DNA of 64,000 nt from Sphaerolaimus hirsutus (taxonomy: Eukaryota > Nematoda > Chromadorea > Monhysterida > Sphaerolaimidae), in the NCBI GenBank assembly GCA_964036195.1, contig OZ038457.1:12923147-12987146 (forward strand). The letters run 5' to 3'. The notes below the pieces were generated by a model. It saw nothing but the letters and a program-made list of their open reading frames with translations, was not told the origin of the DNA and searched no databases. The first letter of the stretch is position 1; every line of letters begins with the position of its first letter. A program made the translations under genes and the position numbers. Shown one piece after another: positions 2,347 to 56,548 of the stretch.

Positions 2347-5300
2347 CTAAGCAGCGACAACCCAATAATTGAACGCCCACATCTGCAAATTCTGGGCGCC
2401 GTACATGCGGGCCAGGTCGAAGCCGATCCTGGCGCCGCCCGTCTGCCCGGCGGACAGGATCCTGTAGGCGCCCGTGTCCACCAAGCCCGACCGCTGCACG
2501 AAGATGGCCATCACGAAGCGGTGGCCTGGGATGTTTGTGGGGCGAGTGTGATGGGGTATGGGCAAGTGGTGGTTGGGTTTTGAAACATACCTATTTTACC
2601 TAGTTTCTGTGGTTTGATCTTTCATAACATGAATATTTTACCGTCACGTGTTTTGAGTCGTTTTGCACAAAAAACCAGTAAAGGTAGATTTACGGCAAAA
2701 CAACAGATAAGAAGTGAAACGACAAAAAACGTCACCGAAAAATTCATGTTTTCAAGTTTTTAATTCAAAATTCACGTTCAATAGTCGAGTTCTCCCACAA
2801 ATTTCTTATGTGTGAGATGTGAAATTCGAATTTGAATAAAAAACATTGGATGAAAAATGGTCCACCGACAAATCAATTTGACGTCGCCGCTCTTAAATCA
2901 ATTTGTTATCGGTCAGTGCAATTGCATACAAATCAAATGACCATTTATTTTGGTGCGTCAACGTGAAATTGATTTGTCTGCGGACCGTTTTTCATCCAAC
3001 TTTTTTATTCAATTTGAATTTCACGTCTCGCACGTTGTAACTTTGAACATCAATTTTGAATTTTAAAAAAAACTTTAAAAAAAACCCTGCGAGATGGCAT
3101 GTAGAATGTAAATTGTCAAATCTAATTTTTGGCTAACCATTTTCCATGACATTTTACTTGACTGTTTACACTCTACATGGAATTTTATGGAGTCTGTGAG
3201 TGCCACCAGGTAAACATCAGTGCACCTGTTTGTCTAGTGCCTATCATCCAAATGTAGGAAACATAAACACAAAAATCAACAGCAGGATTAGCATCAACAA
3301 TATCCAATGTCCAACAAGATACAATTAGAGTACCTAAACGAATGCTTGAATGTGCATAGGTATGTTGTTGAATGAATGAATGCTTGAATGTACATATACC
3401 TAGGTATGTTTATGAATGAATGAATGCTTTAGTGTATTGAGGATGTGTTCTTTCACAAGCATATGTGGCTTCAAAATTTAAGAATAAAATAAAAAAGAAA
3501 ATTTGAAAATTAAGCACAAAAGTTCTTATATTTTTTTAAATTGTATATAAAATTAACCTTGCGTGAAATTTTTTATCTCTTGTCTGTTAACTTTCTGCTT
3601 GTCCACTTGTGGAATAAGCATCTGTTTGTCTTTCACAATATGCACTTCTTATGATTCTTATTCCACTTTTCACTTCCCCTTGTGCGGAAATGGCACCGGT
3701 GATGCTTTTCACAGCTTTTTGCTATCTCGTTTAAGCGGGCATAAACAGTCCTCAGCGCTCGTTGCGTTTTTAGCTCTATGCCGTTTACCCGGGCCCCACT
3801 TTTCGGGTGACCCTTTCATACACTTAGGTAAAAAAAAAAAGTCGGCAGACATGAAACGAGTCAGCGGGACGGGCGCCATGTCTTTCGACATAAATATTTC
3901 GTCACTTTTTCTTTTTCTTTTGTTTTTACCATTTCGACGATGTACGCTTAAAGACGTCATGATGGAGTGGTTCCTTCCAGATATTGATTCCCATAATGTC
4001 TGCCGAGTTTAGCTGCCCTTTTCTGTGGTTTTTGCGTAGCGACAAACTCACTCCTGCCATCGTTGATTGTGGGCGGCGTGTATTCGAAGAACTCGTAGCC
4101 AGAGCCGATGGCCGTGCCGGGAATGTTCACCACGAGCCAGTTGATGTACGCTCCCTCGGCGTGGTCAAAATCTGCGAATCGTTCTCGTAGAGGTATGTAT
4201 AATGTTTGGTTTGGTTAAAGTGGGGGAATTATTTAAGTGGGAATTTATTCGAGTAAATACGGTAGATGCAATAACCCCCCTCGCCAAAAGAATTACTAAA
4301 AAAACTTCCTGGAGAATTTATTCAAGCATTAACTATATTTTGGTTCTTGAAATAGACATTCGAATTAGAAATTTCATTCAATTCACATCGCACTCCACAA
4401 GCGCACTGACCGAGAAGCACCAAAGTGAACAGCCTCTGCCTGGTGCGCCAGAACACCTGCGGCACGCGCTGCAGAATGCTCGTCGACGGCGCCAGATCGC
4501 CGAATTCGGGCGAGAAGAACTGGCCGCTTTGTTCGTAGACCACCTGACGCGTTGTAAAACAGAGTGATTACAATAGTGGAATACTGATGGGCAGATTTGT
4601 TAAGAGTGCTGAAGTTTTTTCAAAGTAGACAAACCTAAAGTATTTAATTTTTACTCACCCCTGACTGAGTACAGAAAACGTAAAGTAATTTTTTTCTTTT
4701 ACACTGCCTAAAAGGCAAGTAAACGAACCGGCCAGTATTTTCACTCAGGGAAAACGTAAAAGCGAGTATTTTTTCGATTTTGTACCCAGGAAAACGTAAA
4801 TGTGAGTAAAAGTTGTCACTTTCCCTACCCGTCAAAACATCAATCATTTGCACTATCATTTTGGAAGCCGTTTCAAATCGCTTGAGTCGTTGTTGCGTTT
4901 GTGCCCCCCCCATTAATTTTTTTGAATTACGTTTTCTGTACTCGCATACTTTCAAAAAATACGCATAAAGGTGAGTACAGGTATTTTTCAGAAGGAAACG
5001 TTCGAATAAACGTAACTACGTTTTACCAACTATGCTGCTGGGCCAGCAATAATCCCGTGTCCCATCTCCGCGCGTACTCACCGTGGCGAAATAGTCCGGG
5101 GCTTCTATATTCCATCCGAAGGCGCTGGTCTCCCTGGCCCAGACGTTCTGCACCACGTTCGACTCGACCACGTTCACGGTGCGCACGTAGAAGTACGTGT
5201 ACGCCCACACGGTGCAGCGTTCGGTCGAAGCGAAGCTGCTCGGGTTGAAGGCGCTCTTTTGGCGGTAGCGGCCCACGTCGATGTCGCCCGATTGCTCGAA

Positions 5301-8300
5301 TACGATGTATGCGTAGCGCTGGATTTCTGAGAGTTGTTGCCGACGGGTACACATAGAAGTACAGTGGGCAGTTCCCGACCCTGTAAAATGTCAAATTTCA
5401 TGCAAAGTATCAAAAGTCATGACCGTGTCGCCATATTCCAGGGCATTTACATGACTTTTGACACTTTGCATGACATTTTACATTTTACAGGGTCTGGGAC
5501 TGGCACCAGGTGGACTGGACTGAAGTGCGTCAGTGCTAGTGTGGCAACTTTCCGCTTTCTGTAGGACGGATTTTGACCATTCCGTTTTCCGGCTGATAAT
5601 TTTTTACCTTTCGTTTTTCCGTTTTCCGTCAAGGGTTGAGTTTTTACCTTTCCGTTTTCCGTAAAAATTGTGTTGTTTTGAGACCCTAGTTAGTGCTGCG
5701 CACGAACCGTTTGAGTCCCTGGGTGGTCTCGCTGCGGTGTAGGGCACGGCAACATCAGCGGTGGCGACGTTATTGCCGCGCATGTTCAGCAAGAGCCAGT
5801 GCAGGTCCCACTGACCATTCTCAAGCACCTCTGCGATCGAAATGAGCAATGAAGCGAGTCAACAATTTAATTTCAAACATGTGTGACCACGCACAGTAGT
5901 AACTAGTGTGGTGATGGAATGGCGCCGTGGAGCTGGCGCCCTTTAATGGCGCCTGGCGCCATTTTTTCTGGCGCGTTTCCATCACTACTAGTAACTGAAA
6001 CTCGAAAAAATTAATAAATCTGCTTTGAACACATTTTGAGTTTTCCTGAATGAATGAGTGATGTCCATACTGACCCATGAAAACGACGGTGTATTTGCTG
6101 GTGGCGGCGAATTCAAAGCGCAGAGTGGGCTGGTCGAATGTCCACGTGTATTCCAAGCTAGTGCCAAAATCGCCGTACCACAGCGCGCCGTTGTACCGGT
6201 AGGACACCTGGGGGGGGCGTATAACAATTCACAATGCAATGTGGCATTAGAACATGAAAATCCGTAGCAAATAGTGTCCAACCGTGCAAATCCACTGAGG
6301 GGAGCTGCTGAACCATCTGGAGAAGGACAGCTCCGGCCAGACTTGTCTGATGTAGCGCGTTTCCGCATCCACCTCTGTCTCGATCGATGGACCCCTGGGG
6401 AATATTACGACATTACCTAAACGGTCCATCAGTTCATAGTTGTTAAAACGTATTTACGTTTACTCGAGAAATACGTATACTTGAGTACTGAATAATACGT
6501 TTACGTTTCCCCTCAAAAATACCTGTAATCACCTTTACGCGTACTTTCTTTTAGGCGTGCAAGTACAGAAAACGTTATTCAGAAAAATAAATGGGGTGCA
6601 TAAAAAGTGAAAAGTGACATAAACTAATTGAAACGGCCGTGAAAATGTCAGCGGAAATGTTCGTAGTCACACCGTACTCACTCGATGCTAACACCAGTCT
6701 GGAAGGTGAGCCCACTCTGGCAGCCGGGCTCAAACTGGCTCATAAAGAAATTGCCAGCCACCGGCGTCCACTGGCGCCAGCTGTCGCCGTTGGCCACGAT
6801 GAACCCATCGTGCACCTTGAATCGGAACCGGTTCGACAAATCGGTGCGCGACGTGAAACGGAAAATGCTGCTAGAGACGATCGACGTTTGTTCGTAGGCC
6901 AGGAAGACGGTGCGGTGGCGGCCTGTGGAGGTTACGTGGATTTGAATGATGTCAGGGGCAGTCCCAGACCTTGTAAATGGTGAAGTAAAGTGTCAAATTT
7001 CATGTAAAATGTCAATCAAAACAAAATAGAAAATATTTTATTACTGAACTTTGAATGACGATTGACACTCTACTTTACATTAGTCAAGACAATGGCATCT
7101 TACATGACATCTGACACTTTACTTCACACTTTACAGGGTCTGGGCTATTTAGTTATATACTGGACGGTCGGGACGCCATGCAGTGAATGCTACCATATTT
7201 TGATGAATAAATGTTACGTGAAAAATTGTGCACCAAACTTACCCACAGTGGGATTAATATGATGTGATGATAATAATTTTTTATGTCTGTTCATTTTTTC
7301 AGGTGGTATATGGTAGATTTCCTTGTAAGATATGCCGTCAGTAGACTATACCAGATGTGAAATGCGAATCATGTGAACCGCTGAAAATAGCAGCTTAACA
7401 TAAACTGTATAGTGGCAGTATTCAAGTTTCATTGTTAAATATTCTTTTAAATTCAAACCGGTGTTCTCCAGTGGTCTCGGTCCGAGATATTCCACAATGG
7501 TCTGGCCCTGGTCCATGTTGCCAATCTTCGCATCGGCCCCAGGCACATTGATAATCATCCAGAGCAGAACCTCGCGCAAGTTTGGATCTCGGCGCGATTT
7601 TTCATCCATATCTAGAATTGGTGTAGCTGTTTTTATTGTTATTAGCACTCTAAAATTTTCGGGATATTTATATTCTTCTAAATATAAGAAAATAAAGAAA
7701 ATTCTCATAATTATTTATGTATTCTCCAGGTAATTCAGAAGAAATCAAATTATATTTATTTTATGATGAGAAGAAGAATTTTATTTTATTTTTTGAGAGA
7801 TTTTCTGATATTATTTATATTTGATCATATTTTGTGAAAAACACCCATTTTTGGAAGCCTAATTGTTATCTATGCGGTATATTGATGGCAGCAGTGCTTT
7901 TAGCTTTGTCTCATATCCCCGTCAACTGACCATACATAACGAGAGTGTAGTACGACTCGTCCCTAGTCGGCCATTGGATGCGGTGCGGGCGGGCGGTACT
8001 CTGCAACCAAGAATATTGATGATACCGTGATATATTCCACAGACATATATTTACCGTATTTCCTTGAAGTACCCCCAGGGGGTTTATTTTTCCAGAGTGC
8101 AAATTTTGACGGGGGAGTAATCGAGGGAGGGGGTATTAAGTTGTTTGCAATGTACGCAGACGTCGTAAAATGCAACAACCGGCATGCATAAGCATCCATA
8201 GACTTACTGTTTTTAACGTGTGTTCCGGATGACACAGATCAAAAATCGCAGTTTTTGGCAATTACATTCTCTTTACGCTCATTTCGTGTGCGCGTTATTT

Positions 8301-8579
8301 TTCATTAGCTCGCTCAGACCCGGGGGCATTTGGAGGGGGGTATTTCGAGGAAATCAATTCAAGTGTCTCTAGTAAAACCACCAGGAACCTACAATTCCCT
8401 CGCAAATGGCATTGCCCAAGTAGATGTCGTAGAGCGTGTCCCTGTACTCGTAGACGACGGTGAGCAGGCAGGGCGGCCCGTCGGGCAGCGACTCGCGCAC
8501 GATGCTGTAGTCCTCGAAGCGCTCGGCCACGATCGACGAGCACGCCTCGATCTTCACTTGCACCAGCGGGTTCTTGTCG
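2347..8579 (-). CDS. Three tandem PEBP domains (C-terminal module of a collagen-PEBP gene)
   Basis: Eleven exons, 5' to 3': 8579-8393, 8000-7931, 7611-7459, 6922-6682, 6394-6283, 6207-6075, 5830-5708, 5326-5082, 4543-4411, 4171-4052, 2525-2347 (TAG stop). All introns are GT-AG and all phases join. The translation holds three phosphatidylethanolamine-binding-protein domains. Domain 1 has [30 protein letters not shown] and PVAGNFF. Domain 2 has [10 protein letters not shown] and [10 protein letters not shown]. Domain 3 has [15 protein letters not shown] and [10 protein letters not shown]. PEBPs bind lipid or nucleotide head groups in a small anion pocket formed by DPDxP and GxHR. Domain 1 keeps D-x-D and G-x-H-R, domain 3 keeps D-x-D and HR, and domain 2 has lost both, so not all can bind. 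Secreted PEBPs are known from parasitic nematodes (Ov-16, TES-26). The first exon begins in phase 2 with no in-frame ATG upstream, so it must be spliced to an earlier exon. The nearest fitting one is the collagen exon ending at 11515. Confidence 0.88.
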
Positions 8580-11500
8580 CTGTGAAAGTGCCGGTTTTAG
8601 GTGGATAGGTAATACTGCGTTCGTTTATCTGGGGCACTCTCAGAGCCTGTAAAATGTCAAATGTCATGCAAAGTGTCAACAGTCGTGTGTTTATTAAAAA
8701 TACCCTGTAAAATACCAAACGTACAGGGTCTGGGGTAGGGGTGGCGCCTGCAACAAACTTGTATCTCTTTTGGTATTCATTGAATCTGCCTAGTCGTAGT
8801 GGAGGTTCAACGTTTTTACGTCTATAACTTTTTTTACTTTATTACGTTTTTAAACACATGCACAGCGTAGCTTTCACCGTTCACCCTGTGATGCATAGTA
8901 TTCACCGTTCACCCTGTGATGCCTTTATGTATTCGAGGGGAGGTGTAATCTTCCGCAGATCGCTCAGCATAATGAATTATTAGAGGGGGAATTAATCGAG
9001 GAAAGATGTTACGTATGTAATTACATAGGTATTTTATCTGCACAGTTTTTTCACCTGTTTTTGTCAAGTTGTCTAACTATTTAAATTCAATGTATCGCAC
9101 CATAAATTAAGTGAAATAGGTAGGTAGGTATAGTTAGCAGTGACTTCTAGTGATGAAAGTGATCCAGTGAAGTAATGGTAGAATAAACAAAAAGCCATCT
9201 AGTGATGCAAGTGTGATCCCGCTTCCCATTTTGTTGTTTAAATATTTCACAGCTGAGCCCTCTGAGGCCAGTGAACCACTGGGCAGCCAATGAACACCAG
9301 CACCTGAGCGAGAGACTCGACCGGGAGTGAGGGACTCCACATCAACCCTTAACTGGTGCCGCGACCGTGGATCGACTCAAAGTGCCTTGAGAGCCAACTG
9401 CACAGGCAGTAGTCCAGTAGCTGCTGGACAGTAGTGCTGTAAGAGTGCAGCACAGAGTAGCTCAGAGAGCTACAGTTGTTAGTGTGCACCTGGTTAGTTG
9501 TGCACCTAACATAGCTTGGAGTGACTCTAGATGCAAGACTCCTCCAATGCTTGGCTGACTGTCTAATTGCAGTTCTTTAGAGCACTGCATGTGATACTTG
9601 CCTTGTCACACAGTGACATAGTGAAAGCCCATTGGGCCTGCATTATTAGCAAGGTGGACTCCAAGGTCCGGACTCAATGCTTTGCTTTCTATTGAGGTCT
9701 GCCCTAGCGATGCACAAAGTGCATAAAGCGAAAGGCACACGCTCAAACCTGCCACCAGGCAGTGAAATAAACACAAAAAGGACCTACTACCTATTAAAGG
9801 TTGCCCACTATAGAGTGGTGCTAATTGCTTTTTGGCAAATGTCAGCATAAACTGACATGCTCTGAGTGAGCTGGCATCCCAGAAGATGGCCAATGAACAG
9901 GGTGAAGGCCCTGCATTCAATACTCGCTCACATGGTGCAAATTTGATCAGTGAAAGTAGTGCCACCAGGCAGAATGCTGAAGCACCAGCAGCAAGTTCTG
10001 CTGAAAACAAAAATGACCAGGTAGATATGGTCAAGCAAATGTGCATATTCATGCAAAACATGATGGAACAGCAGAAGTGCATGATGGACAAACAAAACCA
10101 GATTTTTGAAATGTTAACTGAAAAATTGTCCTCAACCCTGTCCATCAATGAACCCCAGTTGCATTCACCAACACCAACAAACCAACCTAAATACACAGAT
10201 AGCCAGAAACTACTGTGGACACCACTTTTGAATAAAAAGTTTCCAACTTTTGATGGAGAAGATCCACTCAAATTCAAATTGTGGCTTGAAGAGGTCAAGG
10301 TGAGAGTTAAGCTCACTGAGGTACCAGATGAATTTGCTGTGATACATGTGCGCAAATGCCTAAGTGGACGAGCATTGAAACAATTCGAGCACCTGCCTGA
10401 AGGTGATAGGCAAACATTTGAACATGTGTGCAAGTTCTTAGAGACACAGTATGGTGATAGGTTTGCTGCACAAAATGCAATGTCAAAACTTACTGTAGCC
10501 AGGCAAAACAGTAATGAAAATGTCAAAGATTTTGGCCTGTTGATTGAAAGCCTAGTTAAACAGGCATTACCAAACACAGCTGAAAGTGCAACGCAAGTGC
10601 AGCTCAAACACTATTTTATGACAGGACTAATGTGTGAAAAACTGAAACACCAGCTATTTGCTCTGCCCACATTTGATTTGATGGCTTTTGCAGAATTGGT
10701 TGGAAGTGCAGAAAGGCTTGAATTTGCTGCCAAAAGAGTCCAATTTGTTAGGGATTTGACAAACAAGTTTTGCTCCATTTGCAAAACAAATGACCACTGC
10801 ACTGATGATTGTGATATTGTGCTGAAATTGAAAGCTGAGCAAAATGCTCTGAGGTCAAATGCCAAATTGAGTAAGGGAGGGGAAAGTCAAATCTACCAAC
10901 AGTCCCAGAAGCAGTCTGGTAAGTGGTGCACATGGCACAATTCAACTACACACAGCACTGAAGAGTGCAGTTACCTGAAAAGTGTTCCAGAAGAACAGCG
11001 CACCAGGCAGAGTAGTGTGCGCCAGGTTCATGACAGTGCCCCCTATTTGTTCACACAACCCCAAAATTACTCAGATTCAGTCAACACCACAGGAAGGCCG
11101 ATAGCAAGCAGCAACAGAGAGTGGCTGTGCAGGAACCCAGTTCCAAAGTCGAAGTGCATGGATGTAGGTTAAGTACAAGAAGCTGCAGAGCGAGAATGGT
11201 TAGAGTTTGTGATAAGTGATTTTAAGTATTTGAGGCCAAATACTTGGCATAGCCCCCAAGGAGTTAGCAGTGACTTCTAGTGATGAAAGTGATCCAGTGA
11301 AGTAATGGTAGAATAAACAAAAAGCCATCTAGTGATGCAAGTGTGATCCTGCTTCCCATTTTGTTGTTTAAATATTTCACAGCTGAGCCCTCTGAGGCCA
11401 GTGAACCACTGGGCAGCCAATGAACACCAGCACCTGAGCGAGAGACTCGACCGGGAGTGAGGGACTCCACATCAACCCTTAACTGTATTTACATTACCAT

Positions 11501-14500
11501 TGCATGCCACTCACACATAGCAGTCCTCTCTACAAACGCCGTCCGCACCTTGCGGTCCCGTAGGCCCCCTGGGGCCGGGGGTTCCTGGCTGGCCGGCCAG
11601 TCCGCGGTTGCCCGGCCGTCCTGCATTATTAAGATTGCATTAAGCGGTGTAAAGATTAAGCATACTTATCGTTTCAAAAGATTAGTCTTGCATAGTCATT
11701 GAACAATGGAAAGTGCATAGTGTTAGGACTCGGGGTGTAAAAATCGTCAGTCTTTGGCGAAAGCGCCAAAAGCGCCATGGCGCGTTTTATCACCCCATTT
11801 GGCGCTGTTTGTTTCGACGCCAACGCGACGCGCTTTTGATTCCGGCGACATGGTAAAAAGACAGCGCCAAGCGCCGGTGGCAACGCCGTGACGCTTTCAC
11901 ATCACCAGATAGGACTTTACCAGGTGGTCCGGGAGGTCCACGTGAACCGGGGGATCCATCTCTGCCCGGCGAGCCCGGTCGCCCGGGCAAACCATTGGGT
12001 CCGGGGTCGCCTGAAATACACAAACAAACAGTTATCTATGTAATTGAAGTGTTAAAATTACACCAAATAAACCCTTCAATTTGGGCACTCACCGGGTGCA
12101 CCGGGGTTGCCAGGGACATTGGGCGTGGAAACGGCGGGCCTGCCGGGGTCGCCCCTGGCGCCGGCTCTGCCCGGGGACCCCTTGGGGCCAGGGGGGCCCT
12201 GGGGTCCACGACTGCCTTGTCTGCCTGGATTGCCGCCGCGGCCGGGAGAGCCGGGCCGGCCGGGGTTGCCTGCGCGTGAGTAGGTTGTGTGTTGTAGAGT
12301 TACTCGAGTCAGATAGGGCGCACTCGCGTGCGCAGCGCTCTATGTGGCTTACCTACTACCAAACATACCCGCATGATTGACGGCACGGTTGGCACAGAAC
12401 AATAACATATTTGGGTAAAATAATGTGGTAGATTGTGTGTTACTTATTTACTTACGTTTATTTGAAAAATACATATATTTACTCGAATACTGAGTAAATA
12501 CGTTTACGTTTCATCTGAGAAAAAATGCCGGTACTCATCGTTACGCGTACTTTTAGAAAGTACGCGGGTACAGAAAACGTATTTTACTCACACGCATGCC
12601 CTTAACTCGAAAATATAGAAACGTTGAATGATAGCATATCATATCCCTAATAAATACTTAACAAGGGAAGTTTGACGTCTTATTTGACGTCATATTTGAT
12701 GTCTTCTAGAGTAGAAATTTAAAAATTCTCACTTTTACGTTTTCTGTAAGAAGAAATACTCGCTTTTACGGTTTGTGTAAGAAAAAGTACTCACTTTAGT
12801 ATTTCTCTGAAAGAAAAGTAATTTACTCACCTTTTACTCAGCGTAAAAGTAAACATTTATACTTTGTTTTCTGTACACAGCGGTGAGTACACTTTGAAAA
12901 AAGTTCAGCATTTAACAACTTTGGGTAAGCGTCAGTAGACGTTTCCAAAGACAAATATCACCTCACCTGGGTCACCGTTGGGGCCGGGCAAACCGGGCTG
13001 GCCGGGCGGACACTGTCTACATGCGGGAATCTGCACCTCCTCGCACACGATGGGCGGGCGGCCGGGTCGGCCGGGGGTGCCCGGTCTTCCGGGGGTGCCC
13101 GGTTGCCCGTGACGTCCGGACACTCCCTTGGGACCCGGGTGGCCCGGCAGACAGCACCCTGCGATATATTTGAAGTGTTTGTGTTTTTGTTGGCTTTTAG
13201 ATTTATATACCCGGACCCTGGACCCTGTGTTGTGAAAGGGCTCTACTTTTTGGTGGAGCATACGATTGTAACGTGACCGCCGTGGATGGACTTGCATGCA
13301 CAAAAGTTTGCATATTTACGCACAATATCACTTCATTAGGTAAGACACATGTGTTGTGTAACATAAAGGTAAAAGATCGTAAATATTTATGCATCGCACT
13401 TTACACTGTACTGTCTGCCAATACAGCGCCGTCTGTGCATCAATATAAAATACACCGAGCGCGTTTTTAAAATACTTAGCGCACATTTGGTTCGTGCAAC
13501 ACGCTCTTCAGACTTTGAAAAGCAGAGATTTCAGTAGTTACAATGTGAAGGTAAATACATACCTAGTATCTCAGATCATCACAACTTGAGCTCAGAATAC
13601 AGTTTCGAAAAGTTATGGCCATTTAACACAAGAAACGACGTCTATCGCGCCTGTGATGCCGCAAGTAGTGATGGAAAAGCGCCAGAAAAAAGGGCGCCAA
13701 GCGCCATGGCGCCATTCGGAAACCGGGCGCCAGGCGCCACGGGAAAAGGGCACCAAGCGTCAAGGGCGCCATGGCGCCTTTCAGAAAGTGGGCGCCAGGC
13801 GCCAATAGCGGCACAGAGAAAGGGCGCCAGCGCCATGGCGCGATTCCATCACTAGCCGCATGTCAACAACACAGAAACATTGGGGCATGCCACCACTACG
13901 CAAATTTGACGACAGAAAAAAGACTCGAGGTAAGATACCTAAGCGCCATTTGCTAAATTTACAACATGATATCTAGATAGCTGAACGATTACGGGGGGGT
14001 TCAGATAAAAGTAGCCAAAACATCTGCCTCGGGAAAGATAAATACCGTAAATGCTCTAATAATACAACAGGTCTCCAATAATACGACATCTCCAATAGTG
14101 CGACAGGTTTGGGCACGTTGTGTGAAAATAATCCGACACTCTCCAATAATACGACACTCTTCAATAGTGCGACACCCGAGAAAAAAATAAAAAACAGCTT
14201 AATGATGTCGCAATCTGCGGAAGCCGTGGATTCCGCGCTTTTGGACAATTGTTTTGTTAATGTTGATGTTTAATGGCGATTTAATGGGCGATTGTTGATG
14301 TTTATTGCTTTACTATATCATGCTCACGTTTGAGTTATGTGGACAATGAAGTTGTTGATTTGATGAAAACAATAATGCGACACTCTCTAATAATGCGACA
14401 TCTCCAATAGTACGACACCTAAAAATGTGCTGAAAAAAATAGTACGACTGTCGTATTATTAGAGCATTTACGGTAGCTGAGCGGTGTCCACGATATATTT

Positions 14501-17500
14501 ATACCTAGATAGCTGGCCGATTCGGAATGGCGTCCCCCCAAACCCCATTGGACGCGTTCACAATAATCATGCGAAAACAAAATTGATGATTTTTGATTTC
14601 ACAAGTAGGATCAATAAATTTCGTTCTGATCGTTTTTCTTGAGTTTATGCGTTAACATATCAAGCGTAGCAATTAAGTATATTTAAAGGCACAAATACCT
14701 ATCACTTATGGCGGCCCCACACACGCGTGCGTCAACTGCTCTGTGTCAACTCATATTTTTGATTCACGTGTCGCAGGGCGATCGTCCGATGCACTTGCCA
14801 TAATACCACATTTCCTCGAATTACGCGCCTTGGATTGCCCCCCCTCGAAATACCCCCCTGAATAATGTATATCATGTATGCAATGTACATGACGTATATT
14901 GCTGCCAATTTGCATCGTGGCTACCAGGGTTGGCAAAATCTCGGAAAAAAATAAAAATAAAATAAAAATAAAATGGAAAATTTAAGAATAAAATAAAATA
15001 AAATAAAATGGAAAATTTTAGAATAAAAATAAAAATAAAATAAAAATTCGAATTTTTGTAAAATTTTTGTAAAATTGTATAAAAATTCGTATTTTTGTAA
15101 AATTGTGTAAAAATTCATATATTTTTTGTAAAATTTTATCTCATTGCTTGAGTCTCTACCTGTTTATTCATAAATCTGGGAACAGTCCCAAAGTTTGTAA
15201 AGTGTCAAATGTCATGGAAAGTGTCAATTGTCATGACAAATGTAAAGTAAACTGTCAATTGGCATGACAAATATAAACTAAATTGTCAATTGTCAAGCAA
15301 ATTGTATCCAAATCTTATGTTTTATTTTTAAATCTTATGTTTTGTATCCAAATTATGTTGTTGTTGAATCCAAATCTTATGTGAACATTTGGAAACAAAA
15401 ACATAAGATTTGGATACAAGACACACCATGGATACAAAAACACAAGATACGGATACACAATTTACACTTTGCATGACATTTGTCATGACAATTGCCACTT
15501 TGCTTGAAATTTGACGTGACATTTGATATTTTGCATGACAATTGACACATGGCATGACATTTTACAAATGTGCCCAGCACACTCCAGTAGTCCTACTGAC
15601 AATAATTGTAACTTTACACTTGCAGCTAGCTAACAATACCTACTGCATGCAACTTTTGAAAAGTAATGGAAAAATTTGTCACAGGTTTTTCATGTACAGG
15701 TCCAATTATAACATTTTTCTGGCCTTGCATGCATGATTTCGATTTTTTGTAAAATTTTTGTAAAATTTTTGTAAAATGGTGTCATTTTATTTTATTAATG
15801 ACTTTTGGGAATAAAATAAAATAAAATAAAATGAAACAAGAATAAAATAAAAATAAAATAAAATTTTTATACAATTTTTATACAATTTTACTAAAATGAA
15901 TTTTTATAAAACCAACCCTGGTGGCTACACATAAACGAGTTTAGACAGACACCTTTATGTAGTTATGTATAAAAATATGCTGTTTATCACATTTATTACC
16001 CGTTTCAGGTATGTATGTAAAACCCTTTTCTGTACTATGATACTTCACAAAAATGTATGACGCAATAATAACACTCCCCCTCGAATTAAACACCTCTAAA
16101 TTTCCTGACCAAAAAATAAACCCCCTTAGGGTATTTCGAGGAAATACGGTATTTATTTTTCAACATTACTTCATGCGACACGTGAAGCTGAAATCTAAGT
16201 TGACACAGACCAGTTGACACACATGTGTCAATTAGTGTTCGGGCCGCCTATGTTCTCTTACCACAAACACATCGCAGTTCCTTTCTGTTTCCTAAAACGT
16301 GTCCAGTTTGCTATCGGTTACTGTTTGCTATGCGTGCAAAGCAGGGACGTAGCCAGGGTTTTTGAACGGAGAGGGGGGCGCCCCCCTATAAAATTTTGTC
16401 CCTGTAGTGCCAGAATGGAGCTATGGCGCTGGCGCCATTCGTAGCCTAATTCATAACCGTCTGAATGCGGCCAGAAACACACTATTTCGATCGAAATTTG
16501 TATCAGAAAAGAGGACGCGAAATCATTTGTTCAAAGTTGACATAAACAGCCAACCCCCCATTTCAGATATGCTTTCAGTGTAAAGTAACTTTACAGGTAA
16601 ATAAATACATTTTTCACGCCGCGGGCGGCACAAATCATTGGGTGAGGTGCGCATTTAGAAAAACAGTGAGCGGAATGGCGCCGGGCGCCTAATCAAATCA
16701 GAAACGGTACCATTGTCCGTTTGCGTGCCTTACAAAAAGTGACCTCGAAACTTTTACAAATTACCCAAAGAAATTAGATAGGCACCTACTTACACAGATG
16801 CTTGTTTCAAAATTTGAGGTTTTTTGTCGCGACGCAAAAACTGCAAATCACAGACGACGGTGGCGCCAGGACTGATTCGCAAATAGATCAACATAACTGG
16901 ATGGAACAAACTAGAATAATTACTGTGATACTGTGATGTAAGTGATACTTAATAGATAGATGTAATAATTAGGTAGATGTCTCATTCTAATGAAATGCGG
17001 CTGAAGAATTGATGCGTATTTGAAATTTGCCAATGCAGCAATTGCAATCGAACTGTTTCTAATAAATAAATAGTTACCTACCGTATATCCTTGAATAAGA
17101 CCCCAGGGGCGTTATTATTTCGTCAGAGGTTTTTTTTTGGGGGGGGGAGTTATTCAAGGGGGGCACTATTCAAGGGGGGGAGTTATTTTTTCCTCAGAAC
17201 TTCCAGGAAAACTTTCACTTTATTCATTGTTTGTATGCATTCCGTCAACACATCTAATGCAGAAAATGACCAGTTCAACAAGAACAAAAACAACGTATCC
17301 CGGCCGTAGGCTAACATTCTTTTGTATTTTTCGTTTCACACACCAAACCCCATTTGCATTCGATGAATCAGCCCAGACATAGCTTTATTTTTCTGTTTGT
17401 CTCGTTTTCATTTTCGTGTGTTGCTCATCGATCGTTTTACCCAAAGGGGGACTTATTCAAGAGGGGGGGAGTTATTCAAGGGGGGGGCGTTATTTTTTCC

Positions 17501-18759
17501 TCACCTGGCCAACGGGGGGGTGTTATTCAAGGGGGTGTTATTCAAGGGGGGTGTTATTCAAGGGGGGTCTTATTCAAGGATATACGGTATATTGCATTCG
17601 AACTGTTGCAATAATAAATATACCTATTGCAATCGACCTGTTGCAATAATAAATAAATATAAAATTACGATACATAGACACTATACCTATATTGAATTTT
17701 GAGTGATGCGTTCGAACGTTTTTTGGAAACTAAAGTGTGAAACTAAGGAATATACCCAACAGAAACCTGTATAAGGGAAAAAGATTTCCTCTTATCTGGT
17801 GGGCCTGTGTTTTTCATCCTAAAATTCGCACTAGTTCGCCCCCGCGCCAAAAAACCCAAAATTTCAGTGGGTGGTACGCCATAGAAAAAAGAACAAAGGA
17901 CTCACGTTCACAGCCATACACCTGCCTCTTGTGTCTGAGTGAATCGCCGGTGAAGTTGGCTATTCTGTGCTGTTCCTGTGATCTGGACACCTCCGTGCTG
18001 GCCGACATGGCGTCCAGCTGCGACAGCGGCGGGCAGTTATGCACGTACACAATTAATTGATATGTTCTGTGATTGACCGTAAAAATAATGGAGATGGAGC
18101 GAACAAAGCTGCCACAGTACAATGGCAACTCGACTCGACCGACACCAACATGAAACAACGAATGAAAACGGGATTACTACCGCATTTCCTCGAAAAAAAT
18201 GTGACACCTTGCAGCCTATTGATCGGAATTTAAAATATTACAGTATTTTCTCGCATTATCTCCCCCCCCCCTCGAGATATATAATGTACATTATGTATGC
18301 AATGTACATGATGTACAGTATTTCATTGAAATACTCCCAGGGGGTTTATTTTTCAGAGTGCAAATTTTGAGATGGGTTTAATCGAAGGAGGGGTATTTCG
18401 AGGGGGTATTTGAAGGAAAAACGGTATTTGCAATAAAGTAAAAACGCACCCTAGCATGCGAGTGCAAACATACTGAAAGATGGACACTGTATTGGTTTGA
18501 ATTGACATTAACTGTTGAAAAATTGACTAGGAAATTCTCAGAAATAAACAAAAAGGTCGAAAATTACAAATAAGCCAAATCGGCATTGGCGCACCTTGCA
18601 CCTGCCCAAATCCTTCTGCGCGACGGTGCTCCAATACTCGACGCTGTGCATGGCCATGGGCACCAAGCACGCGCAGCCGATCAGCGCCGCCAGCGACGCG
18701 GCCAAACTGGCGTAGATCACGTGCCTGTAGGCGGCCTCGCGGCCCGTTTCCTCGCCCAT
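2347..18759 (-). CDS. Whole-gene model: cuticle collagen fused to three PEBP domains
   Basis: Joining collagen exons 18759-18595, 18017-17906, 13158-12967, 12269-12093, 12010-11921 and 11620-11515 to the eleven PEBP exons gives 2538 nt, exactly 846 codons including the stop. From N to C: cytoplasmic tail, membrane segment (about residues 13-36), RHKR at 83-86, Gly-X-Y tracts (about 96-275), a C-x3-C stretch, and PEBP domains at about 305-497, 535-700 and 703-845. The join uses donor GTGAGT at 11514-11509 (phase 2) and the TTTCACAG acceptor before 8579, giving a Val codon. Inferred role: an extracellular, cuticle-anchored PEBP protein. The rival model ends the collagen at TGA 11511-11513 (281 residues) and leaves the PEBP gene without a first exon. 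The fusion is an inference from phase and spacing, without transcript evidence. Confidence 0.6.
2755..3072. repeat. inverted repeat (foldback MITE) in a PEBP-gene intron
   Basis: Arms of about 100 bp run in opposite directions around a short centre. The left arm contains GGATGAAAAATGGTCC and ACAAATCAATTT, the right arm AAATTGATTTGT and GGACCGTTTTTCATCC. It lies in the intron 2526-4051. No target duplication was resolved. Confidence 0.55.
4592..5034. mobile_element. hAT-like MITE (family A)
   Basis: Begins CAGATTTGTT and ends ACCAACTATG, matching the family termini CAGAGTTGTT/AACAACTATG. Flanking 8-mers ctgatggg and ctgctggg agree at 7 of 8 positions, as expected for a hAT target duplication. 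The interior is rich in ACGTAAA/TTTACGT motifs and non-coding. It lies in the PEBP-gene intron 4544-5081. Confidence 0.65.
5371..5503. mobile_element. MITE (family H)
   Basis: Inverted ends GACCCTGTAAAATGTCAAAT and ATTTTACAGGGTCTGGG surround TGTCA/TGACA-rich sequence. This is one of about ten copies in the window, always with GACCCTGTAAA...TTTACAGGGTC termini. It lies in the PEBP-gene intron 5327-5707. Confidence 0.6.
5913..5983. mobile_element. short GCGCC-rich hAT-like MITE (family G)
   Basis: Ends GGTGATGGAATGGCGCC and GGCGCGTTTCCATCACTA with GGCGCC repeats between. It is a minimal copy of the family described at 51680-51945, in a PEBP-gene intron. Confidence 0.5.
6435..6640. mobile_element. 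truncated hAT-like MITE (family A)
   Basis: Starts CATAGTTGTTAAAACG like other family A copies and continues with TTTACGTTTACTCGAG. The far terminus is not recognisable, so the right boundary is approximate. It lies in a PEBP-gene intron. Confidence 0.45.
6953..7146. mobile_element. MITE (family H)
   Basis: Inverted ends CAGTCCCAGACCTTGTAAA and TTTACAGGGTCTGGG with AAAGTGTCAAAT-type interior. It lies in the PEBP-gene intron 6923-7458. Confidence 0.55.
8052..8356. mobile_element. TA-flanked MITE (family C)
   Basis: Left end TACCGTATTTCCTTGAAGTA, right end GGTATTTCGAGGAAATC. The right terminus has lost the final ACGGTA. G-run-rich interior (gggggtatt), no coding. It lies in the PEBP-gene intron 8001-8392. 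Confidence 0.55.
8632..8740. mobile_element. MITE (family H)
   Basis: Ends GCACTCTCAGAGCCTGTAAA and GTACAGGGTCTGGGGTAG flank TGTCAAATGTCATGCAAAG. It lies in the collagen-PEBP junction intron. Confidence 0.5.
9132..9354 (+). repeat. 5' LTR
   Basis: 223 bp with ends AGTTAGCAG and CCCTTAACT, containing AATAAA at 9182-9187 as a likely polyadenylation signal. Its partner is 11262-11484. Confidence 0.88.
9354..9371 (+). promoter_or_regulatory. putative tRNA primer-binding site
   Basis: TGGTGCCGCGACCGTGG directly follows (and shares its T with) the 5' LTR end. TGG at this position is the complement of a tRNA CCA tail. I could not assign the priming tRNA. Confidence 0.6.
9886..11172 (+). CDS. Retrotransposon Gag-like protein
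   Basis: A 428-residue ORF and the only protein of the LTR element. The N-terminal 110 residues are polar with Met/Gln-rich helical sequence. A retrotransposon-gag capsid-like region starts near FPTFDGEDP (119-127) and runs to about 280. A canonical CCHC zinc knuckle follows (C296-x2-C299-x4-H304-x4-C309), then a CHHC variant (C348-x2-H351-x4-H356-x4-C361). Such proteins package element RNA in cytoplasmic particles. The start ATG comes 531 bp after the 5' LTR, a normal leader length. The ORF is intact, so the element may still be mobilised in trans. The opposite strand carries a long open frame that I consider a shadow. Confidence 0.85.
   Translation: MANEQGEGPAFNTRSHGANLISESSATRQNAEAPAASSAENKNDQVDMVKQMCIFMQNMMEQQKCMMDKQNQIFEMLTEKLSSTLSINEPQLHSPTPTNQPKYTDSQKLLWTPLLNKKFPTFDGEDPLKFKLWLEEVKVRVKLTEVPDEFAVIHVRKCLSGRALKQFEHLPEGDRQTFEHVCKFLETQYGDRFAAQNAMSKLTVARQNSNENVKDFGLLIESLVKQALPNTAESATQVQLKHYFMTGLMCEKLKHQLFALPTFDLMAFAELVGSAERLEFAAKRVQFVRDLTNKFCSICKTNDHCTDDCDIVLKLKAEQNALRSNAKLSKGGESQIYQQSQKQSGKWCTWHNSTTHSTEECSYLKSVPEEQRTRQSSVRQVHDSAPYLFTQPQNYSDSVNTTGRPIASSNREWLCRNPVPKSKCMDVG
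11262..11484 (+). repeat. 3' LTR
   Basis: 223 bp with the same termini as 9132-9354. A weak purine stretch precedes it. The 3' end is followed by the target duplication GTAT. Confidence 0.88.
11511..18759 (-). CDS. Nematode-type cuticle collagen (N-terminal module)
   Basis: Six exons: 18759-18595, 18017-17906, 13158-12967, 12269-12093, 12010-11921, 11620-11515 (or to TGA 11511-11513). Exon 1 starts [14 protein letters not shown] and carries a membrane segment and Cys, matching the nematode cuticle collagen N-terminal domain. Exon 2 has sequon NFT (76-78) and the subtilisin-type cleavage site RHKR (83-86) followed by QVYGC. Exons 3-6 are near-perfect Gly-X-Y repeats, interrupted once by a Cys-rich stretch (VCEEV...PACRQCPPG) typical of cuticle collagens. 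Every triple-helix exon starts by completing a Gly codon after a phase-1 intron. The tail [12 protein letters not shown] resembles the short Cys-containing C-termini of this family. Processed trimers are expected to be secreted into the cuticle. Read alone with its TGA, the protein is 281 residues, a normal size for the family. Confidence 0.9.
11731..11908. mobile_element. GCGCC-rich hAT-like MITE (family G)
   Basis: Flanked by ttaggact (11723-11730) and ataggact (11909-11916), 7 of 8 matching, with the end TTTCACATCACCA. The right-hand duplication overlaps the +5/+6 positions of the donor of collagen exon 5 (GTAAAG at 11920-11915). The insertion therefore sits about 11 bp inside that intron. 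Confidence 0.6.
12430..12919. mobile_element. hAT-like MITE (family A), diverged
   Basis: Shares the TTTACGTTT...ACTCGAATACTGAGTA and TACAGAAAACGT motifs and the right end TTAACAACTTTG with family A. The left terminus is poorly conserved. It fills most of the collagen intron 12270-12966. Confidence 0.5.
13666..13854. mobile_element. GCGCC-rich hAT-like MITE (family G)
   Basis: Ends TAGTGATGGAAAAGCGCC and GGCGCGATTCCATCACTA. Flanks gccgcaag and gccgcatg agree at 7 of 8 positions. The interior is alternating GGCGCC/GCGCCA. It lies in the 4.7-kb collagen intron 13159-17905. Confidence 0.7.
14043..14475. mobile_element. TA-flanked MITE (family D)
   Basis: Inverted ends TACCGTAAATGCTCTAATAA and TTATTAGAGCATTTACGGTA. 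The interior repeats AATAATACGACA / AATAGTGCGACA. No coding. Confidence 0.7.
14925..15920. mobile_element. hAT-like foldback element (family L), third shell
   Basis: Ends CAGGGTTGGCAAAAT and ATAAAACCAACCCTG with an exact 8-bp target duplication gtggctac (14917-14924 and 15921-15928). The arms are (A)AATAAAAT-rich low-complexity sequence in opposite orientation. A family H MITE sits inside. No transposase. Confidence 0.75.
15183..15573. mobile_element. MITE (family H), core of the nest
   Basis: Ends AGTCCCAAAGTTTGTAAAGT and ACATTTTACAAATGTGCCC bracket TGTCAAATGTCATGG-like repeats and an internal palindrome of AAATCTTATGTTTT / AAAACATAAGATTT. Confidence 0.5.
17079..17589. mobile_element. TA-flanked MITE (family B)
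   Basis: Ends TACCGTATATCCTTGAATAA and TTATTCAAGGATATACGGTA, perfectly inverted over about 20 bp. The interior has GGGGGG-rich blocks with GTTATTCAAGG. Open frames in it are G-run artefacts. Confidence 0.75.
18178..18426. mobile_element. TA-flanked MITE (family C)
   Basis: Ends TACCGCATTTCCTCGAAAAA and TATTTGAAGGAAAAACGGTA with a ccccc/ggggg interior. It lies in the collagen intron 18018-18594. Confidence 0.55.
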
Positions 18760-20701: not shown

Positions 20702-20866
20702 AATTTACAGCAGGGGGCACTCCCAGACCCTGTAAAATGCCCTGTAAAATGTCAAATGTCATGCAAAGTGTCAAAAGTCATGTAAATAAAATGCCTGGTA
20801 AAATGGCAAACGTTCGTTTGACATCTGACATTTTACAGGGTCTGGGAGTGGCACCAGGTGGCAGAT
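20702..20866. mobile_element. MITE (family H)
   Basis: Ends GGCACTCCCAGACCCTGTAA and TTACAGGGTCTGGGAGTGGC, a near-perfect inverted repeat. This is the cleanest family H copy. TGTCAAATGTCATGC motifs continue to about 20915. Confidence 0.7.
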
Positions 20867-38551: not shown

Positions 38552-38632
38552 AGACTCCCAGACCCTGTAAAGTGCCCCGTAAAATGTCAAATGTCATGCA
38601 AAGTGTCAAAAGTCATGGAAAATGTCCTGCAA
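38552..38632. mobile_element. MITE (family H), half copy
   Basis: Left terminus CTCCCAGACCCTGTAAAGTG and TGTCAAATGTCATGCAAAG. No right terminus. Confidence 0.45.
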
Positions 38633-51338: not shown

Positions 51339-54300
51339 CTACATTTTCGCTCTCAACTGATCACTTAGCGCCCGCCAATCGGCCGGCCTTTCAAAGCATT
51401 TCGGCGAGCTCAAAACCGCCTCAAAAATGCGCTCGTAGATTTTCCCGTCACTCGAGCCCAAACTCGAGTTTAGAATAAAATCGGGCGGGGCCAAAACGTC
51501 GGCGAGGGCGACGCATTCGGGTCGAAGTTTATCAAGAAGTGCCAAAGTGCGCTGTTGCAACCTTTCGAGCCATTGTCTGTCGCAGAAACCGCCTGAGAAT
51601 TTTTTTCGAGAAATTGACAGTTCATGGGCGATTGAATTATTTTCCACTACTTGAGTTTTTCGTCCTAAATGTTGGCATCTAGTGATATAAAAAGCGCCAA
51701 TGCTTTGGCGCCAAGCGCCGTGGCTCTTTTCTAACCCTTAGCGCCAAGCGCAAATGGCGCCATAGCGAAATGGCGCCAAGCGCCATGAGGCTTCTTTCTT
51801 TGGTGCTAGCGCCAAGCACCAGTACCAGGAGCTATCGTTCCTGGCGCTACAAAAATAGCGGTAAGCGCCAAAAACGCCACCGCGCTTTTCTTGAGCATGG
51901 CGCCAAGCGCTACAGTAAAATGGCCATAGCGCTTTTTCATGACTATTGGCATCAATCAAACACTGTCAAAATCCGAATCACTGGGCCGAAAAGTGCGCCA
52001 CAGATGGTGGTTCCGCGCGACCCCTGCTGAGCAGTGACGTCAAAGTAAAACTAACCCATGTACAAGAAAGTAGAGTGCTTGTGCAGGCAAACGGCCGCAT
52101 ACAGTTCGCACAGTTTTCGCATCACACTGCGCACTGCCACATCGGGTGCGGCGCTCGCAAATTGTGAAAAAGCCCGGATGACCACGTGCTGCAAAACCGG
52201 AGGAGGGCTTTAAATATCATTTCGAGCAGTGATTCTAGACAAAACAGATTTCAAACCTGCGCGTAGGCGAGGCCCAAGTCGGCCGCGTGGAACACCTGGG
52301 CGTTGTTCTTGGCGCTGAACGCGTCCTGACCCCGCTCCGTGTTGGAGCGAATGCGCGTCACAGTTCGACGCAAAAGGTACGCTATTAGCCAGTGGTATGC
52401 GTCCAGCACGTCTGAACAAGGGTGAAGGTTCAATCCTCCGATCTTAGGTGTAGAAAATCGAGGCTGAATTTACCAGCTATGAAATCGTCGCTATGCGCAC
52501 ACGACTTCCTGGTTGGTTGACGCAATTCATCGTGAAGGAAATCCGCACTTCCAAAAGGCGATTCGATCGGGGAGCCTGTTCAAACAGCCAGCTTTCGCAT
52601 AAGTTTACGTAGGTCATGTTTCAATGTAGGTAAGTATTTCATTAACCAGTCTCAAATGCGTCATAAAGGGCGATGAGATAATTCGAAGCTTGTTGCATAA
52701 GCACATGATTTTCCCCTTCGAAGGTGACGGTGGGGTCAAAGTCAGACCGCAGATCGGACAGCCGGGACGACTTCAAAAATCTGCAAAGGTTACTCAGTAA
52801 GTCACAGCATTTCCCGCTCAGTAAATCGCACCCGAATTTTTCCTATTCCCCGTAAGCCGTGACAATAAGAGTTCTACTATGTACAAACAAACAACTTTGT
52901 GCGTAAAACCTCCACCTTATCAGTATCGCTTTGGACAAACAAAGCTTATGACCTCAGAAAGTCACGTAAAACAATCATTAAATGTTCTATTAAGAAAATA
53001 GCAAAAAAATCTCCACCTATGTTAGCGATATTCCCAACTTTTTTTGTCATCTACAATTTGAAAATACATTGAAGATCTAAATAGAAAAATATATCTCGGG
53101 TGGCCCACGTCAGGCGCACGGTTTCAATTGGCTCCCAACACGTCAATTTTGAATGAAAACTGCTCAATTTGGTATGTCGGTAGAAAAATGTACCCCATTT
53201 GTTGTGTTAAGTGCACGGTTCCACATAACAAAAATTCATGTCGGAACGTGAAACACAGTTTTGTACATGTTTGAACTGTCGAACGAGCTTCAAGTGTCTA
53301 CCAAATCACCAATTCTTCATAAAAATAGCCCAAATTTGGCATGGCAGTAGATAAATGTTCCCTTTTTAGTATGTTAAGCGCACACATTCATATCACCAGA
53401 TTTGTCACATTTATCACACCATATGCAAAAAACGTAACTCCACAGGACCACCTAAATTGGGATTGTTTTCAACATGTGAATATGAAACTGTGCTTCACGT
53501 TCAACACGAAATCTTGTGATATGAAACCGTGCACTTAACATAACAAATGGGGTACATTTATCTACCCTCATACCAAATTTCAGCCATTTCCATCCAAAAT
53601 TGACGTGTTGGGAGCCAATTGAAACCGTGCGGCTGACGTGGGCCACCCGGTACTATTGACAATATACATTGAACCCCCGCAAAACCTACAAAACGCATGT
53701 AAAAGCCCAAAAATATAACCCGTGTCCTCCACAAGCTTCGCGAGCCATTTGCACGGCGGCCAAGCCGGTCCAAGTCGCCAGCGGCTTGCACGCGGATGAT
53801 ATGGCGTGCATTTCGCGCGACATGCTCACCTGCAAAGTGAAAATTGCCATTCGATCGCCACAGATATTGTCAAAAAGCTGATAGTGTTGATGGTTAGAAT
53901 GCGCCGGCGAAAACTGGCCATGCCACTAGCATCGGAAAAAATGCGACGCGTCTCCGTTTGGCTTTTTTATCAATCTCATCGATGCACTAAAGCAATGAAA
54001 AATGCCCCAGGGACCAAACACACCACTTCGTCACTTTTATCACCAGAGAGCTGCCTTGCCATAAACTCGACATACCACAGAAAGATTGTGTCAGCGAAGT
54101 GCGTCAACACAAATGCGCTAGCCAATGCGGGTAGAACTCGATATTGCTGCGATAATTAAAATTCTAAATATTTTAATGGAAAAAATCGGCTCAATAAAAC
54201 AACCCACTGACGTCTTAAAAATTTGAGAGAAAATGACCAAAATTGAGCAATACCAATAAACTTGGCAAAAATTCCGCTGACCTGCTGTTGGTATTCAATA

Positions 54301-56548
54301 ACAGACAATTCATCAGCTTGTTGTCCTTCACTGTCATGTGGTCCAAACTGGCGCCTGGCAGCCGAATATCGGACCACAATAACAGATGCCAGTCTGCATG
54401 CGACCGCGCCCTGTTCCACGATTCCGACGCGGCCCATTGAAAGTGCACCCAGGGCGGCGGATTGACGCTCACGGGAGGACTGGAATTTGGGTAGACATTG
54501 CGACCATTTGCGCAAAGCTTTGGGTTATGGGCCCACACACACACTAGTTGACATCGCAAATTCGTCACAGTTCGAATGTCAACTAAAAACACAAAATATT
54601 TTTCAACTTTAAAAAAGCATAAAACTTAACAGAAACGATGACAATTGTGTCAACCTCTAGCACATAGGAAAGTTGAAATTACATATTTGACCAAAATTTG
54701 GTTTAATTAAGTTGACACGAATTTTGATGGCAACTATAGTGTAGACCCATCCGGGCGCGCCAACCTTTGCTGAGGTGACGTAACGGCCATCGGCAGTCAC
54801 GTCGCCACTTCGATTGAGAAGGCACCAGCGAGGCACCCGGTAGTTCACGAACATCAGCCAACTGAGAGTGAATCACAACGCAGGGTACACGCAAGCTTAT
54901 TTGCATATGCCAAAACTAATTATTATTTTCAAAATCGAAATTATGCAGTTAAAGCTTTTTAATTTGCGAGGTAGCGTTTGCAAGCGTGGTGTTGAAAATA
55001 TAATTAGCCGATTTTGCATAGCCGGTTTACGTATTCAAAGCAGCAAACTTGCCCGTTATCGACCGCATTCCAGCCGGCTTTCTCGCCCATATCGCCGACA
55101 ATGACACCAGGCGGCGACTTCAAAGTCACCATATCTCTTATTTGCACTACAAAACAGTGTGTCCCGTGGCATTGCTGCTGCTTTGTGGAGTGGTCGCGAG
55201 TATACAGCTGCAAGTAGACGCACGCGTGTGTCGCGTATTGGCCTGCATGGTAAATTGAGAGTTGATTTGGTCTGAATGAATGCCCTCAAGCCTAGCCGTT
55301 TGAGATGTCAAGTTGACATTGTCAACTCACCCATGTTGCCCACCCATGCCTTGGCAGCTCTAAAATCGGGACTGTTCAAAACGAACTCCTCAGTTTCTGC
55401 ATCATAAACGGCCTCCGATCGAATGGCTTTGGAGTTTGAGCCGTGCGAAAACTCCGTCAATGCGAAACAACCGAAAAGCTCAAAGTTTTGCGCTTTCTCG
55501 GCGATTTCCCTCTGGCGATCAGTGCCCATCATGCGGACGGTGTTCGTGAAAACCTTCGATTGTAAGGTCGCCGGTAACATCAAATACCATATTACCCCCA
55601 GGAGGTTTATTATTTCGCCAACAAATTTTCAGGGGGGTTAATTAGAGGGGGTCTATTTTTGCGAAATTCCACATACTCCGACAGCGAAAAATCAAACAAT
55701 TACATAGAGTTGTGTTTATAGACGTATATAACTTTACCTACGCATAAACCCTGCCCTAACGTCACCCAGCCATTGATTTCAACGTGTGTTCTGCATCATA
55801 CAGATCACAAAGTGCGGTATTTGTCGTGTACATTATTTTTAAACTCAATTTGGGTGGGGCTTTTTCGGGGGGGGGGGGGGTGTTGTTATTTTCCCAGCAA
55901 AATTTTAGGGGTCATTTCGAGGGGGGTTAATTCGAGGTAATACGGTAGACAATCTCTTGCACAAAGAAAGAAACAATTTAAAAATTGCACAGCACCTGTG
56001 TGTGCAGAACATATTTAGCCAACAGTTGCATGTCGTACATCGCCAGCGCCTCGCTCAGCCAGTGTTCCCTTAGGAGCTGAATGTCAAATGAAGCATTCGA
56101 TTGGTCAATGAAGTTATTTCACCAAAATACTTGTCGAATGACAAACATCGGAAGAAATTTCCCACAGATCCTTGTAGACGACAAGCTTCTGCCACTTTTT
56201 GAAGGTGGCGCTGCGCAGTTCGCTCGCGGGCAGAGTGACATTGTTGTCGCGTGCAAACGTGTTGTCGTTGGATAACGTCCGGAACACGACATCCTGCAGC
56301 GGGAATCAATTGGTTCAAATCAACGGCAATGACAACAACAACGACAACGCGTTCCGATACACATTTGCCCGCAAAAACTCTGAAACGATTCCAACCATAA
56401 ATTGTATTTTATCATCTGAGTCAAAATAGCGTTTTAGGGCGGCCCAATCGAAGCTGGCTTGTCGTCGAAAGGGGGTCAAGTCGCCCGGTGTGACTTCAGC
56501 CAGAATTGTCTCTACCGATCTTTCGGCTGGCACGCGCATTTCGGACAT
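51339..56548 (-). CDS. ACOX3: Peroxisomal acyl-CoA oxidase, ACOX3 type
   Basis: Fourteen exons: 56548-56363, 56293-56123, 56076-55996, 55553-55331, 55242-55053, 54861-54765, 54479-54282, 54146-54024, 53829-53720, 52780-52647, 52575-52474, 52411-52257, 52188-52056, 51592-51339. They join in frame to 718 residues, against about 700 for the family. The protein would catalyse the FAD-dependent first step of peroxisomal beta-oxidation, making trans-2-enoyl-CoA and H2O2; ACOX3 prefers branched-chain substrates. Visible signatures: GCFALTEFSHGSN (174-186), QCHGTHCFVVQIRD, VGDMGEK, MGRVGI, RYSAARRQFGP, EACGGHG (454-460), and FEGEN with likely catalytic Glu481. The C-terminus AKM fits the PTS1 consensus. 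The start MSEMRV was chosen because homology begins soon after it and the upstream frame is not protein-like. Introns hold MITEs of families C, F and G. The intron after 55053 is GC-AG. The exon 8 end could be 54024 or 54027. Confidence 0.95.
51680..51945. mobile_element. GCGCC-rich hAT-like MITE (family G), reference copy
   Basis: Ends TAGTGATATAAAAAGCGCC and GCGCTTTTTCATGACTA, flanked by an exact 8-bp duplication ttggcatc (51672-51679, 51946-51953). It lies in the last ACOX3 intron. Confidence 0.85.
53097..53653. mobile_element. foldback element in an ACOX3 intron
   Basis: Arms of about 250 bp are inverted: GGGTGGCCCACGTCAGGCGC at the left end, GCGGCTGACGTGGGCCACCC at the right. AAAAATGTACCCCATTTGTT and AACAAATGGGGTACATTTAT occur within the arms. 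No ORF. It fills most of the intron 52781-53719. Confidence 0.7.
54529..54748. mobile_element. Tourist-like MITE (family F)
   Basis: Ends GGGCCCACACACACACTAG and CTATAGTGTAGACCC, with GTTGACAT/GTTGACAC inward. In the ACOX3 intron 54480-54764, ending 17 bp from the donor of exon 6. Confidence 0.6.
55589..55946. mobile_element. TA-flanked MITE (family C)
   Basis: Ends TACCATATTACCCCC and TTAATTCGAGGTAATACGGTA with G-run interior. In the ACOX3 intron 55554-55995. Confidence 0.6.

Follow-up and report, generated by a model that had tools for sequence, protein, structure and literature searches.

A predicted cuticle collagen of Sphaerolaimus hirsutus with three PEBP domains at its C-terminal end

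Cuticle collagens are regarded mainly as structural proteins. Outside the cuticle, C1q and the collectins use a collagen stem to assemble their C-terminal binding domains into multimers. In Caenorhabditis elegans, many cuticle collagens are type II membrane proteins that carry an RxxR site, the cleavage of which is aided by BLI-4 in the cases studied, and DPY-7 and DPY-8 with a mutated RxxR site are not secreted (PMC13225626, PMC10538796). Of the 173 cuticle collagens of this species, 109 are reported to have the RxxR motif (PMC10538796). As for PEBP domains, one is fused to other domains in TES-26 (also Tc-PEB-1), an excretory-secretory antigen of Toxocara canis; this protein has 262 aa, its PEBP domain is joined to two ShKT domains, and no collagen is mentioned in its description (PMC3611597). 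In the literature that we searched, which most subscription papers lie outside, no protein fusing a collagen to a PEBP was found.

Here we analyse a 64,000-nt stretch of the genome of the nematode Sphaerolaimus hirsutus (contig OZ038457.1), hereafter the window. Judging from its sequence, we consider it probable that one gene in the window encodes an 845-residue protein made of a cuticle-collagen stem with three PEBP domains at its C-x3-C end. Like TES-26, the predicted protein has PEBP domains fused to other domains; unlike TES-26, its partner is a collagen. It would work like C1q and the collectins without being a member of these groups, since its binding domain and its collagen family are both unrelated to theirs.

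Gene model and domain content

On the minus strand, from 18759 to 2347, 17 exons join into one open coding frame with a single stop, at its end, and the 16 introns of this model are all of the GT-AG type. The six collagen exons (C1 to C6) and eleven PEBP exons (P1 to P11) follow one another on this strand, as a preliminary description of the locus had stated. Splicing at donor 11514 gives 2538 nt, that is, 846 codons including the stop, so that both the codon count and the phase-2 GTGAGT donor previously proposed for C6 are recovered.

Exon C1 (18595..18759) opens with the start ATG and a short tail, followed by a hydrophobic segment at 18723-18649. Exon C2 (17906..18017) encodes RHKR, an RxxR sequence of the furin type (17936-17925), which precedes the Cys cluster borne by C3 (12967..13158) together with the first Gly-X-Y block and a Cys-rich spacer. 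Gly-X-Y sequence fills C4 (12093..12269) and C5 (11921..12010) and ends in C6 (11515..11620 in the fusion model), which contributes the C-x3-C motif and terminates 2 bases into a codon. The collagen part is built of Gly-X-Y blocks with non-collagen spacers, the spacer carrying Cys pairs. When the window protein was scanned against Pfam, with matches to E 1 shown, the Collagen family was found at 8e-25 (86.8 bits versus a cut-off of 27.2). Col_cuticle_N was placed where expected, at residues 16-57, with 12.9 bits, under its curated cut-off of 23.5; despite this sub-cut-off score, a tree of collagen N-termini (see below) groups the window collagen within the cuticle collagens. More precisely, it belongs with cuticle collagens ending GICPKYCALDGGVFFEDGTRR, such as P0004 from Meloidogyne, with which it shares a C..CC.PGH cluster, an RPPI.C spacer and an RxxR site. 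Unlike the window fusion, P0004 retains the usual collagen tail, ends 14 residues after C-x3-C and has no PEBP domain listed.

The product of exons P1 to P11 is 564 residues long and contains three PEBP domains. Domain 1 starts in P1 (8393..8579), runs through P2 (7931..8000) and P3 (7459..7611) and ends in P4 (6682..6922). Domain 2 extends from P5 (6283..6394) through P6 (6075..6207) and P7 (5708..5830) into P8 (5082..5326), where domain 3 begins, the latter continuing through P9 (4411..4543) and P10 (4052..4171) to P11 (2347..2525), which also holds the stop codon. Over the whole PEBP region, Pfam PBP matched in three stretches (1e-20, 74.8 bits, cut-off 24). The domain search suggested in the preliminary description was also run on each domain singly: domains 1 (39.9 bits) and 3 (26.3 bits) pass the same PBP cut-off, and domain 2 alone gave no Pfam PBP match. 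Domain 2 is identified as a PEBP by hhalign, which scored it at 97.6% (E 4e-12) against a profile built from six further PEBP domains, compared with at most 1.7% for 10 shuffled domain 2 sequences.

The exon sizes of P6 and P7 (133 and 123 nt, 6207-5708) resemble those of P9 and P10 (133 and 120 nt, 4543-4052), all on the minus strand. This match suggests an internal exon duplication in domains 2 and 3, although their present sequence identity is as low as 21%.

Among the relatives of domain 1 with solved structures are Tm16 (3e-20) and PEBP1 (2iqx). Where these two proteins have DPDAP..HHW/HHF and GLHRY, domain 1 has DMDEK..LLW and GRHRT. The canonical motifs of the DPDxP..HHW and GxHRY type, which we take to be the PEBP ligand-site residues, are thus only partly kept in domain 1, and for this reason a protein or an altered lipid would be at least as likely a ligand as ordinary phosphatidylethanolamine.

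Elsewhere in the window, two ORFs on the minus strand (51342-51737 and 55311-55628) have the appearance of acyl-CoA oxidase exons; Pfam returned ACOX at 1.4e-22 and, below cut-off, Acyl-CoA_dh_M at 2.3e-4. Rfam and tRNA scans of the 64-kb window gave no match.

A protein of the same build predicted in Plectus sambesii

When the PEBP part was searched against 5.8 billion proteins, its nearest relative was the UniRef entry A0A914W6A2 (P0001 in our listing), a predicted, uncharacterized protein of 658 aa from Plectus sambesii (E 5.9e-65). At E <=0.001 this search returned two matches, A0A914W6A2 and a 372-aa tandem PEBP (4e-29). A search with the PEBP part of the Plectus protein returned, at E <=1e-6, A0A914W6A2 itself and a 423-aa tandem PEBP. 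In these PEBP-part searches, the length range of which left out single-domain PEBPs, no third species with a collagen-PEBP fusion appeared, the Plectus protein being the only match with a collagen.

A0A914W6A2 begins with a cuticle-collagen N-terminus, an RSKR sequence at the same place as the RHKR of the window protein and a C..CC.PGH cluster. Further on, Gly-X-Y resumes and is followed by CPVFC, a short linker and two PEBP domains. Like the window protein, it therefore presents a cuticle-collagen N-terminus with RxxR, Gly-X-Y, C-x3-C and PEBP in the same order; unlike the window protein, it has two PEBP domains instead of three and a collagen that seems to be partly misread. Judged by eye, the collagen is apparently read in the wrong frame at about residues 130-225. 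Since Gly-X-Y, CPVFC, the linker and the PEBP sequence run on without a break, the Plectus model reads the correct frame both before and after its collagen-PEBP junction. At cut-off, Pfam listed PBP only for this protein (Collagen 20.0 bits versus 27.2; Col_cuticle_N unlisted). An AlphaFold model of it, computed from a 3-row alignment, had a mean pLDDT of 45.7 and was too poor to use.

The two predicted proteins also resemble each other in detail. Their first PEBP domains are identical at 95 of 213 positions (44.6%) and share an extension ahead of the PEBP fold (ITLTVDRCSSLV in one of the pair). The motif [VI]IY.S occurs in only 2 of 122 sequences, those from the window and Plectus, the others being the best 120 listed collagen matches of 1075, a few vertebrate MARCO among them. 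When 82 collagen N-termini (80 of the 105 matching listed collagens plus the window and Plectus sequences) were placed in a tree, the two came out as sisters with support of 88/59, which is not decisive. This pair is nested in a four-row clade (98/88) with P0004 and with P0003 from Pristionchus, an entry marked partial that stops within the collagen tail. With phmmer, the Plectus protein ranked 7th of 48 when collagen residues 1-93 were used, 4th of 118 with residues 1-140 and 89th of 121 with the full collagen, and we ascribe this last rank to the apparently misread stretch in A0A914W6A2; the comparison above relies on the N-terminal tree in place of the full-length ranking.

The preliminary description had put forward a possible new protein architecture and recommended looking for the same fusion in related genomes. 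The collagen-PEBP build is supported by our analysis, and its presence in the predicted Plectus protein means that S. hirsutus is not alone in having it. The order of collagen and PEBP in one frame is permitted by the frame and splice sites of the window and is present in the Plectus prediction. From these sequences, the best reading is that the collagen-PEBP fusion has come down to at least two lineages of nematodes.

The collagen-PEBP junction and its alternative readings

The GTGAGT donor of C6 (11509..11514, minus strand) encloses a TGA at 11513-11511 in the collagen frame, a feature absent from the preliminary description. Because of this stop codon, the collagen alone could end there, as a complete 846-nt frame of 281 residues. 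The TGA is not independent evidence for such an end, since a phase-2 intron with GTGAGT always reads xxG TGA GT, and P4 of the same gene, whose donor is also a phase-2 GTGAGT, would likewise run into an in-frame TGA if left unspliced. Of the 2962 stop triplets counted in any frame on the minus strand of the window, 17 (0.57%) fall inside GTGAGT, six of these GTGAGT sequences being donors of this model (five undisputed ones and the disputed one of C6). Accordingly, the TGA loses weight as a demonstration that the collagen is a gene of its own. GTGAGT is the sole phase-2 GT in C6. Taken as a whole, this donor agrees with the consensus at 6 of 9 positions, its exon side (TGT) being poor; scores for the remaining 15 donors range from 5 to 8.

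The intron between C6 and P1 houses an LTR retroelement of 2.35 kb (9132..11484, plus strand). Its two LTRs (9132-9355 and 11262-11485, about 224 nt each) are identical, indicating a young insertion, and a 4-bp target duplication, GTAT, is seen at 9128-9131 and 11485-11488. The longest ORF of the element, to which the protein search was applied, is gag-like (9856-11169, plus strand) and runs antisense to the gene; Pfam PNMA matched it above cut-off (1.8e-7) and Ty3_capsid below cut-off (1.3e-4). Subtracting the element leaves an intron of 577 nt, in agreement with the LTR insertion and the spacing of about 580 bp reported earlier. We also observed a dispersed short repeat with CCAGACCCTGTAAAATGTCA ends, which looks like a small inverted-repeat transposon from its sequence. 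It is matched seven times at up to 3 mismatches, versus 0 expected (5374-5393, 5478-5497, 7124-7143, 8640-8659, 20723-20742, 20826-20845 and 38558-38577), one copy lying inside the junction intron.

We looked for a start exon of an independent PEBP gene within the junction intron (11510-8580). The 577 nt contain 10 ATGs, and a strongly hydrophobic stretch is found in none of the frames that they open. The four longest of these frames are 29, 28, 22 and 20 aa, with 8-residue means <=1.16; the 29-aa frame is without a phase-2 GT, and the other three have phase-2 GTs. With the element in place, 34 ATG frames have a phase-2 GT, and 15 of them exceed the hydrophobic-run threshold set here; all 15 are inside the LTR element and are thus not ancestral. 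P1 begins in phase 2 with no ATG upstream, as had been described; extended upstream, its frame reaches a stop codon first. Consequently, a separate secreted PEBP gene would be without a visible start in the junction intron, and the earlier remark that little room is left there for a PEBP first exon agrees with the absence of a credible candidate in the 577 nt. Within the PEBP part no Met occurs before residue 84, so that trans-splicing onto P1 would cost the first 83 residues of domain 1.

These data bear on whether the locus could instead consist of two genes, a collagen stopping at the TGA and a tandem-PEBP gene with an unrecognised first exon, the Plectus protein then being a merged model. 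The collagen frame is indeed complete with its TGA, its donor is poor on the exon side, and P1 might be reached from an unrecognised exon, perhaps inside another intron. The junction intron has AATAAA at 8843 and at 8695, beyond the LTR element, which would suit an early collagen end, and neither AATAAA nor ATTAAA occurs within 1 kb past the PEBP stop, where only variants are found (1423 and 1403). Automatic models do merge neighbours, as seen among the listed gene models in P0036, which includes an unrelated glycosyltransferase domain, and in P0111, which includes an unrelated GPCR domain; the Plectus protein is itself a single automatic model with an apparently misread stretch, a sub-cut-off Pfam collagen score and an indecisive sister support. 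Two genes would, however, require that the same neighbours stay adjacent in two diverged nematodes and that the PEBP gene do without a signal-peptide-like ATG frame in the 577-nt intron or, if trans-spliced onto P1, without a large part of domain 1. The collagen would also have an unusually short tail: a stop at the TGA would leave 2 residues after the second Cys of C-x3-C, compared with 4 in one and at least 14 in 33 of the 34 collagens that have Gly-then-C-x3-C in their last 60% (among the 120 listed, the best of 1075 relatives). We therefore judge two separate genes improbable.

Because the donor carries a stop codon, a junction intron that is retained or ended prematurely would give a plain collagen, and one gene might thus make two products, the fusion when the intron is spliced and a 281-residue collagen upon intron retention or intronic polyadenylation. 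The position of the TGA within the donor and the two AATAAA sequences beyond the element speak for this scheme, which is compatible with the single fusion gene that we favour; the automatic occurrence of such a TGA at any phase-2 GTGAGT donor, P4 included, and the lack of the usual collagen tail in the short product speak against it. Overall, we regard a second product as possible, if rather unlikely. A fusion gene that is real in ancestry and disabled in this copy by the LTR element appears least plausible, with a very small chance of being correct: the identical LTRs do point to a recent insertion, but the exons are open, the splice sites are present, and the element is wholly intronic, with its gag-like ORF antisense to the gene. 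The same order in the Plectus model, together with the lack of a credible PEBP first exon in 577 nt, leads us to support the fusion architecture.

Proposed arrangement and significance of the fusion

The predicted fusion protein starts with an N-terminal hydrophobic anchor and RHKR, continues with a triple-helix region that closes with C-x3-C, and finishes with the three PEBP domains. In our working model, the anchor would take the chain into the secretory pathway, chains would trimerise through Gly-X-Y and be cut at RHKR, and the three PEBP domains of each chain would be carried into the cuticle or a precursor matrix. By analogy with the RxxR-bearing collagens studied in C. elegans, a C-terminal PEBP array could reach the cuticle. 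A cuticle-tethered or furin-released PEBP array, as the preliminary description had envisaged, would fit the RHKR sequence and the collagen N-terminus. We lean toward the view that these proteins of Plectus and S. hirsutus are lineage-restricted cuticle collagens in which tandem PEBP domains took the place of the usual C-terminal tail, and that a trimer may display up to nine PEBP domains (in the window protein) in the body-surface matrix.

P. sambesii can be cultured (PMC12536314), making the fusion testable in that species. If our proposal is true, the cuticle-collagen machinery, with its anchor, furin release and trimer, would have acquired a second use, the presentation of a binding domain as seen in C1q and the collectins, and PEBPs would gain a place in the extracellular matrix.
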